The notes beneath the pieces are model-generated. The model saw nothing but the letters and a program-made list of their open reading frames with translations, did not search any database and had not been told where the DNA came from. From Microbacterium lacticum (lineage in GTDB: Bacteria; Actinomycetota; Actinomycetes; Actinomycetales; Microbacteriaceae), in NCBI RefSeq assembly GCF_006716815.1, contig NZ_VFPS01000001.1, forward strand, positions 310,001 through 374,000: 64,000 nt of DNA, read 5' to 3'. Shown piece after piece: positions 40,650-47,570 of this stretch. Every line of letters starts with the position of its first letter. Within the stretch, counting starts at the first letter, position 1. A program made the position numbers and the translations under genes.

Positions 40650-40675
40650 GTCTCGAACCTACCGCCGCGCTCGCG

Positions 40676-42763
40676 TCATTCGGAACAGGGCTCCATCCGG
40701 AACAGGTGCAGCGCCGTGCCGGGCAGGGCGATCACCGAGCCCGGGGCGAGCACCGCGAGGCTCTCGTCGGGCCGTTCGGGAACGCTCGACCACAGCGACG
40801 TGTACCCCGCGACCCGGTCGAGGCGGGGGAGCGTGACGTCGATCGGGCGCTCGTTGCCGTGCACGACGAGGAGGATGCGGTTCGGGGCCTCGTTCTCGGG
40901 AGTCGATTCGGCGTCGTACTGCAGGGTGCGGTGGGCGGGGTTCGTCCACCGCTCGGGCGACATCGTCTCGCCGTGCTCGTCGTACCAGTCGATCACCGAG
41001 GCGCTCGGCACGGTGCGGGCCTCGTGCGCGAACCGGCGGGGGCGGAGCGCGGGGTTCTCGTGCCGCAGCTGCACGAGCCGGCGCGCGTGGGCGAGCAGGT
41101 CGTCCTGCCAGGGGGCGTGCTGCCAGTCGATCCAGGTGAGGGGGGAGTCGTGGCAGTACGCGTTGTTGTTGCCGCGCTGCGTGCGTCCGAACTCGTCGCC
41201 CGCGGTGAGCATCGGCACGCCGGCCGACAGCAGCAGCGTGCCGAGGAGGTTCCGCATGGCCTTCCGTCGGGTCGCCAGGATGCCCGGGTCATCGGTCGGG
41301 CCTTCGGCGCCGTGGTTGAACGAGCGGTTGGTGTCGGCGCCGTCGCGGTTCTGCTCGCCGTTACCCATGTTGTGCTTGACGTCGTAGGAGACGAGGTCGC
41401 GGAGCGTGAACCCGTCGTGCGCGGTGATGAAGTTGACGCTCGCGAGCGGACCGCGCTCGGCGCTGAACGTGTTCGACGAGCCGGCGAGGCGGGTCGCGAA
41501 CCCGCCCGCGCCGACCGGCGGCGTCGACGCACGGCGCGCGTAGTCGACGTCGCTCAGCCAGAAGTTGCGCACCCGATCGCGGTAGCGGTCGTTCCACTCG
41601 CTCCAGCCGGCCCCGAACCCGCCGGTCTGCCAGCCGCCGAGCCCCACGTCCCATGGCTCGGCGATCATCTTCCGCCCCGCGAGCCGCGGGTCGTCGACGA
41701 TCGCGCGCAGGAGTGGATGGTCGGGGTCGAACGCGTGGTCGGCGCCGCGGCCGAGGGTGGGGGCGAGATCGAAGCGGAATCCGTCGACGCCGACCTCGTT
41801 TGCCCAGTAGACGAGCGAGTCGAGGACGAGGCGCGCCGCGGCATCCGTCGAGGTGTCCACCGAATTTCCGCAACCGGTCACATCGATGTAGCTGCCGTCG
41901 TCGTGCTGCCGGTAGTAGGCGGCGTTGTCGATGCCGCGGAAGCTCGAGCGCGGACCGCCGATGCTGAGCTCGGCGGTGTGGTTGTAGACGACGTCGAGGA
42001 TGACCTCGATGCCCGCCGCGTGCAGCGACCGCACCATCTGCTGCACTTCGCGCAGCACCGCCTGCGGCCCCGCCTCGCGGGAGGCGGCGGTGGCATAGCC
42101 GCTGTGTGGGGCGAAGAAGCCCACGGTGTTGTAGCCCCAGTAGTTCGTGAGCCCCTGGGTGAGCAGGCGCGGCTCGGTCTCGAAGGCGTGGATCGGCAGC
42201 AGCTCGACGGCGGTCACCCCGAGTGCGGTGAGATGCTCGATCGTCGCGGGGTGGCCGAGGCCGGCGTAGGTGCCGTGCAGGGCGGGCGGAACGCCCGGAT
42301 GCCGCTTGGTGAGGCCCGTCACGTGCGCCTCGTAGATGACGGTGCGGTCGAGCGGCGTCTCGGGGCGCGGGCCGAGCGGCTCGTCGGGTGTGCTGTCGAC
42401 GACGACGGCGCGCCACTGGCCCCGGCGCACCGGCACGAGGCCGCGCGCGTAGGGGTCGATGAGGAGCGCCTCCTTATTGAAGGTGTTGCGCGGGCCGGAG
42501 GGACCGTCGACACGCAGGGCGTAGCGGGTTCCGAGCGCCAGCTCATCGGTCGTCGCCTGCCAGACGCCGCCGCCGACGGGTTCGAGCGGCACGACCGCGG
42601 TGATCCAGTCGAGATCGGTGTCGTCGAAGATCACGAGCTCGACGCTCGACGCGGCGCCCGACCAGACCCGCAATGTGCCGCCGTCGGGGCCGAGGGTGAC
42701 ACCGAGGTCGTCGTAGACGGACCCCTGGAAGGGCGCGGATTCGGACGGGAGCGAGCTGGCCAT
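40676..42763 (-). CDS. glgX: glycogen debranching enzyme GlgX
   Basis: 695 aa. GH13_11 isoamylase-type debranching enzyme. N-terminal CBM48, then YWGYNTVGFFAPHSGYA, DVVYNHTAE, nucleophile in DGFRFDLAPTLGR, Glu in MIAEPWDVGLGGWQTGGF and HDGFTLRDLVSYDVKHN. Starts at an ATG 7 nt after a -10 TACTGT that overlaps the -10 of the divergent cysteine desulfurase gene. glgE starts 26 bp after its stop. Confidence 0.94.
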   Translation of the reverse strand: MASSLPSESAPFQGSVYDDLGVTLGPDGGTLRVWSGAASSVELVIFDDTDLDWITAVVPLEPVGGGVWQATTDELALGTRYALRVDGPSGPRNTFNKEALLIDPYARGLVPVRRGQWRAVVVDSTPDEPLGPRPETPLDRTVIYEAHVTGLTKRHPGVPPALHGTYAGLGHPATIEHLTALGVTAVELLPIHAFETEPRLLTQGLTNYWGYNTVGFFAPHSGYATAASREAGPQAVLREVQQMVRSLHAAGIEVILDVVYNHTAELSIGGPRSSFRGIDNAAYYRQHDDGSYIDVTGCGNSVDTSTDAAARLVLDSLVYWANEVGVDGFRFDLAPTLGRGADHAFDPDHPLLRAIVDDPRLAGRKMIAEPWDVGLGGWQTGGFGAGWSEWNDRYRDRVRNFWLSDVDYARRASTPPVGAGGFATRLAGSSNTFSAERGPLASVNFITAHDGFTLRDLVSYDVKHNMGNGEQNRDGADTNRSFNHGAEGPTDDPGILATRRKAMRNLLGTLLLSAGVPMLTAGDEFGRTQRGNNNAYCHDSPLTWIDWQHAPWQDDLLAHARRLVQLRHENPALRPRRFAHEARTVPSASVIDWYDEHGETMSPERWTNPAHRTLQYDAESTPENEAPNRILLVVHGNERPIDVTLPRLDRVAGYTSLWSSVPERPDESLAVLAPGSVIALPGTALHLFRMEPCSE

Positions 42764-42769
42764 GCGCTC

Positions 42770-42776
42770 TACAGTA
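42770..42776. promoter_or_regulatory. shared symmetrical -10 core of two divergent genes
   Basis: TACAGTA lies in the middle of the 19-bp gap between two divergent start codons. Read on the plus strand TACAGT (42770-42775) ends 7 nt before the ATG at 42783. Read on the minus strand TACTGT (42776-42771) ends 7 nt before the ATG at 42763. Both transcripts would be leaderless and the two polymerases would compete for the same bases. Confidence 0.7.
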
Positions 42777-42782
42777 GTAAGG

Positions 42783-44015
42783 ATGATCTACCTCGATCAC
42801 GCGGCCTCCGCGCCGCTGCGTGCGAGCGCGCGGGACGCCTGGATTGCCGCCGCGACGGAGGTCGGCAACGCCTCGTCGGTGCACGGGTCGGGGCAGGCCG
42901 CGCGCCGGCTGCTCGAAGACGCCCGCGAAGCGGTCGCCGCGCGTCTGGACTGCGAGCCGATCGAGGTCGTCTTCACGGGCGGCGGCACCGAGTCGATCAA
43001 CCTCGCGCTCAAGGGTCTGTGGTGGGCGCGGGAGGCCGGTCGGGACGCCGTGGTGCTGCCTGACGGCGAGCACCACGCGACCCTCGACACGGTCACGTGG
43101 CTCGCCACGCAGGGCGCGGCGGTGCGTCCGGTGGGTCTCGACGGTGTAGGGCGTATCGATCCGGAGGAGTTCGCGGCGGCGCTTGCGGGGGTGGATGCCT
43201 CCGCAGCGGAACCCTCCGCGGCGGATCTCTCGGCGGCGGATCTCTCCGCGGCGGCGCTCGCGACCGCGCTCGTCGTGAACAACGAGGTCGGCACGGTGCA
43301 GGACGCCGCGGCGCTCGCCGCCGCGGCGGCGGATGCCGCGGTGCCGCTCCACCTCGACGCGGTCGGTGCGGTGGGACACGTTCCCGTCTCGTTCGCCGGG
43401 TGGCGGGGAACGGCCGCGGGCTCCTCCGGACTCGTCGCGCTGAGCCTGTCGGGGCACAAGTTCGGCGCACCGGTCGGCACGGGCGCACTCGTCGTCTCCC
43501 GCCACGCGAGCCTCGCTCCGCTCCTGCACGGCGGCGGCCAGCAGCGGGGCCTCCGCTCCGGAACGCCCGACGTCGCAGGGGCGGTCGCCCTCGCCGCCGC
43601 GCTCGCCGAGGCGACCGACGAGCTCGGGGCCGAGACCACGCGGCTGCGGGCGCTCGGAGATCGGCTGATCACGGGCATCCGTGCCGCGATCCCGGCGGCG
43701 GAGCTGCTCGGCGATCCGGTCGGGCGCGTGCCGGGGAACGTGCACGTGCTCTTTCCGGGCGCGGCGGGGGAGTCGCTGCTGTTCCTGCTCGACCAGGCCG
43801 GCATCTCGGTGTCGATCGGTTCCGCGTGCCAGGCGGGTGTCGCGGAGCCGTCGCACGTCGTGCTCGCACTCGGGCGCGACGAGCGCGCCGCCCGGTCGGT
43901 GCTGCGTCTGACGCTGGGGCGCTCGTCCACGACGGAGGACGTCGACGCGGTGCTCGCGGTGCTTCCCGAGGCGTACGCCCGGGCATCCGGATCCCGCACA
44001 GCCGACCGCTCGTAG
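42783..44015 (+). CDS. cysteine desulfurase (class V aminotransferase)
   Basis: 410 aa. NifS/IscS-type PLP enzyme: YLDHAASAPLR start, PLP His in DGEHHATL, PLP Lys226 in SLSGHKFGAPVGTGAL, and the persulfide-forming Cys349 in SIGSACQAGV. Directly upstream of mnmA, so it probably feeds sulfur for tRNA 2-thiouridylation, as IscS does. A 15-bp tandem repeat adds AAEPS-AADLS-AADLS near residues 141-155, in a region expected to be a surface loop. Its stop codon TAG is the first half of the mnmA -10 hexamer. Confidence 0.92.
   Translation: MIYLDHAASAPLRASARDAWIAAATEVGNASSVHGSGQAARRLLEDAREAVAARLDCEPIEVVFTGGGTESINLALKGLWWAREAGRDAVVLPDGEHHATLDTVTWLATQGAAVRPVGLDGVGRIDPEEFAAALAGVDASAAEPSAADLSAADLSAAALATALVVNNEVGTVQDAAALAAAAADAAVPLHLDAVGAVGHVPVSFAGWRGTAAGSSGLVALSLSGHKFGAPVGTGALVVSRHASLAPLLHGGGQQRGLRSGTPDVAGAVALAAALAEATDELGAETTRLRALGDRLITGIRAAIPAAELLGDPVGRVPGNVHVLFPGAAGESLLFLLDQAGISVSIGSACQAGVAEPSHVVLALGRDERAARSVLRLTLGRSSTTEDVDAVLAVLPEAYARASGSRTADRS
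43203..43247 (+). repeat. 15-bp in-frame minisatellite in the desulfurase gene
   Basis: GCAGCGGAACCCTCC (43203-43217) followed by GCGGCGGATCTCTCG (43218-43232) and GCGGCGGATCTCTCC (43233-43247). Length changes would keep the reading frame. Confidence 0.8.
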
Positions 44016-44024
44016 ACTGGACGC

Positions 44025-45122
44025 ATGCGGATCCTGGCGGCGATGAGTGGTGGTGTCGACTCGGCGGTCGCCGCGGCGCGCGCCGTCGAGGCGGGCCACG
44101 AGGTCGTCGGCGTGCACCTCGCGCTCTCGCGTGCGGGCGGTACGCTGCGCACCGGCAGCCGCGGCTGCTGCACGATCGAAGACGCGATGGATGCCCGGCG
44201 GGCCGCCGATCTCCTCGGTATCCCGTTCTACGTGTGGGACTTCTCCGAGCGGTTCCGTGACGACGTGATCGACGACTTCGTCGCCGAGTACCGCGCGGGC
44301 CGGACGCCGAACCCGTGCATGCGCTGCAACGAGAAGATCAAGTTCGCCGCGCTGCTCGAGCGCGCGATCGAGCTCGGCTTCGACGCCGTGTGCACGGGGC
44401 ACTACGCGACGCTCGTCGACGGGCCGGACGGGCGCGAGCTGCACCGCGCGAGCGACGACGCGAAGGACCAGTCGTACGTGCTCGGCGTGCTCACCGCCGA
44501 GCAGCTCGCGCACACGTACTTCCCGCTCGGGCAGACGCCGTCGAAGGCGATCGTGCGCGCGGAAGCCGCGGCGCGCGGGCTGACCGTTGCGCAGAAGCCC
44601 GACAGCCACGACATCTGCTTCATCCCCGACGGCGACACGCGCGGATGGCTGGCCGACAAGGTCGGCGTCGCCCAGGGCGACATCGTCGACCGCACCGGCG
44701 CCGTCGTCGGCAGCCACGAGGGCGCGCACGGCTACACCGTGGGTCAGCGCCGCGGGCTCTCGCTCGGGGTGCCCGCCGCCGACGGCAAGCCGCGCTTCGT
44801 GCTTGAGGTGCGGCCGGTCTCGAACACCGTCGTCGTCGGCCCGCGGGAGGCGCTCGCGACCGCCGAGATCGCCGGCGGGCGGTTCAGCTGGGCGGGGCGC
44901 GCTCCGGCATCCGGTGACTTCCCCTGCCACGTGCAGATCCGCGCGCACGCCGATCCTGTGCCCGCGCGGGCGGTGCTGACGGATGCCGGGGTCACGGTCA
45001 CCCCGGACGCGCCGTTCGAGGGCGTCGCGCCCGGACAGACCGCCGTGCTCTACGACGGCACCCGCGTGATCGGACAGTTCACGATCGACACGACGGTGTC
45101 GGCGGTGCCCGTTCCCGCCTGA
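44025..45122 (+). CDS. mnmA: tRNA-specific 2-thiouridylase MnmA
   Basis: 365 aa. Makes s2U34 in tRNAs for Glu, Gln and Lys. PP-loop SGGVDSAVA at residues 8-16; active-site Cys in [12 protein letters not shown] and in [23 protein letters not shown] in the C-terminal part. TAGACT (44013-44018) ends 6 nt before the ATG and shares its TAG with the stop of the desulfurase gene. Confidence 0.95.
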
Positions 45123-45221
45123 CCCGTCGGGTGCGTCGCGGTCGCCTCGCGCTGGTGTTCGCTGAGCTGTCTGCGGCGTCGGCGAGCTGGGTGACCCACG
45201 GATGTCGGAGCCGGTTCGTAG

Positions 45222-47570
<2,349 letters not shown>

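Follow-up and report, generated by a model that had tools for sequence, protein, structure and literature searches.

A shared 7-bp core as a candidate bidirectional promoter between the divergent glgX and cysteine desulfurase genes of Microbacterium lacticum

The glgX–desulfurase locus and its -10-like core

The window analyzed here is a stretch of 64,000 nucleotides from Microbacterium lacticum (assembly GCF_006716815.1, contig NZ_VFPS01000001.1, positions 310,001 to 374,000). Two divergent genes were identified in it. The glgX gene, encoding a glycogen debranching enzyme, occupies 40676..42763 on the minus strand (ATG at 42763; NCBIfam TIGR02100, 723.8 bits, cut-off 640.9), and a gene for a cysteine desulfurase of the NifS/IscS type occupies 42783..44015 on the plus strand. 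The best NCBIfam match of the desulfurase was TIGR03402, with 296.9 bits, below the cut-off of 530.75. Its start was placed at ATG 42783, from which the relatives align; the upstream in-frame ATG at 42762, given in the ORF list, overlaps the glgX start codon and was rejected. The desulfurase gene is followed on the plus strand by mnmA, encoding the tRNA 2-thiouridine(34) synthase (44025..45122; NCBIfam PRK00143, 407.3 bits, cut-off 284).

The intergenic region that holds both proposed promoters spans 42764..42782, which confirmed the 19 bp given by the initial annotation, and the two start codons lie 20 bp apart. Read from 42761, the plus-strand sequence is CAT GCGCTC TACAGTA GTAAGG ATG. The 7-bp core TACAGTA (42770..42776, of the form TANNNTA) contains one hexamer on each strand: TACAGT at 42770..42775 on the plus strand, 7 nt 5′ of the desulfurase ATG, and TACTGT at 42776-42771 on the minus strand, 7 nt 5′ of the glgX ATG. 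The same annotation had named this string as a -10 candidate for both genes at exactly these spacings, and the sequence bears it out. Its description as palindromic holds as TAC-A-GTA, symmetric around an odd central base, and CTACAGTAG forms a 9-bp dyad. TANNNT can be read on both strands of the core, with A42771 and T42775 common to both hexamers and paired reciprocally, as in the symmetric -10 class of promoters; T42770 belongs to the plus hexamer only and A42776 to the minus hexamer only. Compared with TATAAT, the plus hexamer matches at four of six positions and the minus hexamer at three of six, and both fit the high-GC TANNNT form. A consensus scan of 42500-43100 found no -35-like site and no promoter or terminator consensus.

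Leaderless TANNNT promoters with a variable centre, for which no -35 element is needed, are described for high-GC bacteria and Actinobacteria in excerpts of two reports (PMC3160421, PMC3898074). The site studied here resembles them in having TANNNT just 5′ of a start codon, an arrangement common in the genome, and differs in that one hexamer region would serve two opposite genes. The genome-wide signature was measured in 464 kb of the same genome (the window plus 20 stretches), using a simple, conservative ORF caller. TANNNT stood 6 nt (39 genes) or 7 nt (17 genes) before ATG or GTG in 56 of 276 genes, and the counts at spacings of 4, 5, 8, 9 and 10 nt were 4, 1, 6, 5 and 3; starts of the leaderless type are thus frequent here. 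Nearby examples are found at 40656-40661, 6 nt 5′ of the GTG (40649) of an alpha-amylase-family gene downstream of glgX, and at 45219-45224, 6 nt 5′ of the ligA GTG at 45231. The alpha-amylase-family gene, which matched no family above cut-off in the NCBIfam search, is presumably glgE. Few leaderless-type genes have an A immediately 3′ of the hexamer on the same strand: 3 of 54 besides the glgX/desulfurase pair. Among about 31 close divergent neighbours in the 464-kb sample, three pairs had a leaderless-type start on both sides, and glgX/desulfurase was the only one of the three with a common hexamer. At L206:7655-7703 (G000:C1), two divergent genes each have a leaderless-type start, with 43 bp in between and a separate hexamer for each.

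The rarity of the string was also estimated. TACAGTA occurs once in the window against 0.17 expected, and at least one copy was present in 16 of 100 shuffles. The 3.09-Mb genome has a single instance of the layout CAY-N6-TANNNTA-N6-RTG, and layouts with 6+6 and 6+7 nt spacers are absent from it (both strands searched). A reversed control pattern gave three matches per strand in the same genome. Across 295 genomes of the genus, the ATG-only pattern was found in 15 and its reversed control, counted by hand, in 19. Rarity was rejected as evidence because the reversed control is equally frequent. What makes the site significant is its conservation at this locus, together with the genome's leaderless signature, and not the rarity of the string.

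Conservation of the core in relatives

Conservation was examined in 190 desulfurase loci, comprising L001-L030, 80 short stretches chosen in descending order of identity and 80 named loci, and a divergent glgX was within range in 130 of them. L005 and L028 were not anchored in frame and were left out of the counts (the core is visible in L005 and not in L028), as were L156 and L160, where the core is visible and no glgX match lies in range. Some genomes are held twice in the genus-level set, which contains 106 distinct contexts; L138 is named to the Microbacteriaceae level only and L148 to the Actinomycetes level only.

The start of glgX is preceded at 6-7 nt by a TANNNT hexamer in 128 of the 130 loci, the M. 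lacticum locus included, so that a leaderless-type start of glgX is nearly universal in the set. The plus-strand T, which makes the core readable in both directions (two-way type), was kept in 82 of 120 genus-level loci. Outside the genus it was present in 6 of 8 loci, belonging to Rathayibacter, Cryobacterium, Agromyces, a Microbacteriaceae MAG, Galbitalea and Herbiconiux. The conservation that the initial annotation had named as a check was thus found in most relatives. The arrangement might in principle be a chance placement of two AT-rich hexamers, an idea that suits the equal frequency of the reversed control; the retention of the core at the same place within and outside the genus strongly disfavours it, and we regard it as highly improbable.

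In the two-way loci the spacing to the glgX ATG was 7 nt in 81 of 82, and the centre of the core varied (CAG, GAG, GGG, GGC, CCA, CGA and others). An A five bases past the hexamer on the plus side (core position 10) was present in 80 of the 82 two-way loci versus 1 of the 38 loci lacking the T (one-way type), which still retain the glgX hexamer. The dyad extends one base past the core, with C before it in 65 and G after it in 64 of the 82. This last feature would fit a reading of the dyad CTANNNTAG as a transcription-factor operator instead of paired -10 elements. However, the three central bases vary freely, the spacing to the start of glgX is constant, the minus half persists in loci without the symmetry, and TANNNT 6-7 nt before starts is a feature of the whole genome. 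An operator is therefore very unlikely to account for the site.

Two architectures at the desulfurase start

The plus-strand T was absent from 38 of the 120 genus-level loci, 35 of which have C instead. All but one of these 38 (37 loci) carry a GANNNT-type hexamer at a distance of 6-7 nt upstream of the start of the desulfurase gene itself; in the remaining one, L138, CAGAGT was seen by eye at the place of the hexamer. Named examples are Microbacterium testaceum StLB037 (L127) for the two-way type and M. oxydans NBRC 15586 (L132), with GANNNT N6 ATG at the desulfurase gene, for the one-way type. By comparison, an own hexamer was found on the desulfurase gene in only 6 of the 82 loci with the T, and in three of these six it lies 5 nt from the start and may belong to a ribosome-binding site. 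With repeated contexts removed, the counts were 34 of 35 without the T versus 6 of 71 with it. Fisher's exact p for the T/own-hexamer table, 1.7e-23, ignores relatedness and duplicate genomes and was not used as a probability. Outside the genus, L152 and L154, which lack the T, showed no own hexamer by the rule used.

In one-way loci L016-L024 and related ones, GANNNT, with G for the first T, is perhaps a variant leaderless -10 element. Its fixed A and T and its variable centre favour a -10 identity on sequence grounds. The stretch is also purine-rich and could partly be a ribosome-binding site.

The history of the two states was followed on a desulfurase tree of 80 proteins, built by a quick method and with many open forks, in which L005 was given its T state by hand. 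On this tree the plus-strand T changes five times and the own hexamer six times. The T changes were read as L008, L146 and one large clade in the genus, each with an own hexamer, plus L152 and L154 outside it. An independent-pairs test of the link between T and own hexamer gave a median p of 1, with only 2 pairs on starred branches. The occurrence of the two-way type in outside genera suggests that it may be the ancestral one. Genomes in which glgX had moved away were considered as a natural experiment and left unused, since the best glgX matches in 13 genomes were 47-57% identical and may be paralogues; the exception among the 13, a 74% match in G154 at a contig end beside the desulfurase gene, was likewise unused.

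These patterns bear on whether the desulfurase gene uses the core at all. If only glgX did so, transcription of the desulfurase gene would begin at another site, such as one inside glgX, and TANNNT on the plus strand would be a by-product of the glgX element. The glgX hexamer is indeed the most conserved part of the site, and six two-way loci offer a second candidate hexamer near the desulfurase start; the desulfurase gene in these six may not need the core. On the other hand, both types keep the glgX hexamer, yet the T specific to the plus strand and the position-10 A of the core go with the two-way type, and most losses of the T are in loci with a separate desulfurase hexamer. Moreover, with the ATG 7 nt from the plus hexamer in M. 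lacticum, a ribosome-binding site at normal spacing would not fit. We consider exclusive use by glgX unlikely, though it is the strongest of the alternatives to a bidirectional promoter.

The proposed bidirectional promoter and its leaderless form

Judged from motif, spacing and conservation, the 7-bp core is probably a bidirectional promoter whose -10 element (TANNNTA) is nearly symmetric. In this model, the A42771 and T42775 pairs would exchange roles, supplying the conserved A and T of the hexamer to a polymerase, presumably carrying the housekeeping sigma factor, in either orientation. On the minus strand the core would give rise to a leaderless glgX mRNA, and almost every relative in the comparison retains this layout; on the plus strand the core would start the cysteine desulfurase gene. 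In most relatives the desulfurase mRNA would have a leader, usually with a ribosome-binding-like stretch. In M. lacticum this leader is missing, and both mRNAs are predicted to begin at or beside AUG and to be translated without a leader. Elsewhere in the genus, the core appears to have lost its plus half, and the desulfurase gene would use its own leaderless-type -10. Against the bidirectional reading are the relatedness of the loci, some of which are the same genomes under two names, the lack of a -35-like site and the lack of enrichment of the string.

Symmetric -10 bidirectional promoters are a known prokaryotic class, described by Warman, Grainger and colleagues (excerpts of PMC10268837 and PMC12825309). 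Divergent transcription starts in this class lie 7-25 bp apart, with 18 bp being typical, according to the excerpted text of PMC10268837. The M. lacticum site shares with the class a near-symmetric common -10 and conserved A and T paired reciprocally across the strands. Its 20 bp fall in the 7-25 bp range, with the distance taken between start codons, at or beside which transcription is predicted to start. It differs in having 20 bp (both spacers are 7 nt) against the typical 18, and in that both mRNAs would be leaderless. The class of promoter is thus already known, and the form found here is an unusually compact one in one genome. In Mycobacterium tuberculosis, prpD and Rv1129c are divergent neighbours whose mRNAs are both leaderless (excerpt of PMC3898074). 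The present pair is alike in being divergent and in its two predicted leaderless mRNAs; a single common -10 is not stated for prpD/Rv1129c in that excerpt. Among open PMC papers, we found no report of one common -10 giving two leaderless bacterial mRNAs and nothing on point for start-site maps of Microbacterium.

The initial annotation had called both promoters leaderless. Both starts lie at leaderless distance in M. lacticum, where the desulfurase TACAGT is followed by N7 and ATG, so that this part of the proposal agrees with the sequence; the double arrangement itself is not conserved. The start of the desulfurase gene could be placed in 79 of the 82 two-way genus-level loci, and it adjoins the core only in L001 (this genome, 19 bp) and in L048 (G234, 21 bp). 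In the other 77 loci it does not lie next to the core, the gap being 44-179 bp (some starts are uncertain), and a ribosome-binding-like stretch was found in 72 of these 77 by a loose rule. L001 and L048 are not sisters on the quick tree, whose forks are weak here, and the leader may therefore have been lost twice. In several two-way loci with long gaps (L015, L025, L118, L104 and L011), a conserved stretch of approximately GTCGGNNNNGTTACG, then a CCGGTTCC-like one, lies 20-50 bp from the core and is possibly a regulator site.

A further proposal was that the promoters are mutually exclusive and act as a regulatory switch, linking the debranching of glycogen with sulfur transfer and tRNA thiolation. 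Such a switch would be compatible with the bidirectional promoter favoured here, and the layout on which it relies is real in this genome. It would also draw on a steric property of the class: two opposing polymerases cannot occupy one bidirectional promoter together (excerpt of PMC12825309). By analogy, mutual exclusion at the glgX/desulfurase core is possible, with one polymerase occupying it at a time. However, in the five Escherichia coli promoters tested, basal transcription was too low for competition, and repression arises once one side is activated, as the same excerpt has it. Also, the strictly doubly leaderless layout is present in 1 of the 79 two-way loci with a placed start, with one more close to it, and L026 and L029, among the first 30 loci, showed no glgX match beside the desulfurase gene. 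The link to tRNA thiolation is weak. The mnmA gene has its own -10 hexamer, TAGACT at 44013..44018 on the plus strand, overlapping the desulfurase stop codon TAG. TANNNT lies 6-7 nt before the mnmA start in all 64 loci with a mappable start (66 examined), in one of them only if the start is taken 6 bases upstream of the aligned position. The own TANNNT start argues against dependence of mnmA on the shared promoter, although read-through into mnmA may occur, and the coupling is unsupported. Overall, we consider the regulatory switch quite unlikely, only slightly less so than an operator.

For the bidirectional promoter itself, a wider account can be offered tentatively, with somewhat less than even confidence: one 7-bp core would make two leaderless mRNAs from functionally unrelated genes, and across Microbacteriaceae the shared core would alternate with separate promoters, with loss of the T in loci whose desulfurase gene carries a leaderless-type GANNNT promoter of its own. 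If true, the core would be a very compact promoter uniting symmetric -10 elements with leaderless mRNAs, and the alternation in Microbacteriaceae would be a natural experiment on how a bidirectional promoter is formed and broken up. The relatives with and without the plus-strand T would then be natural variants bearing on selection for bidirectionality and on polymerase interference.
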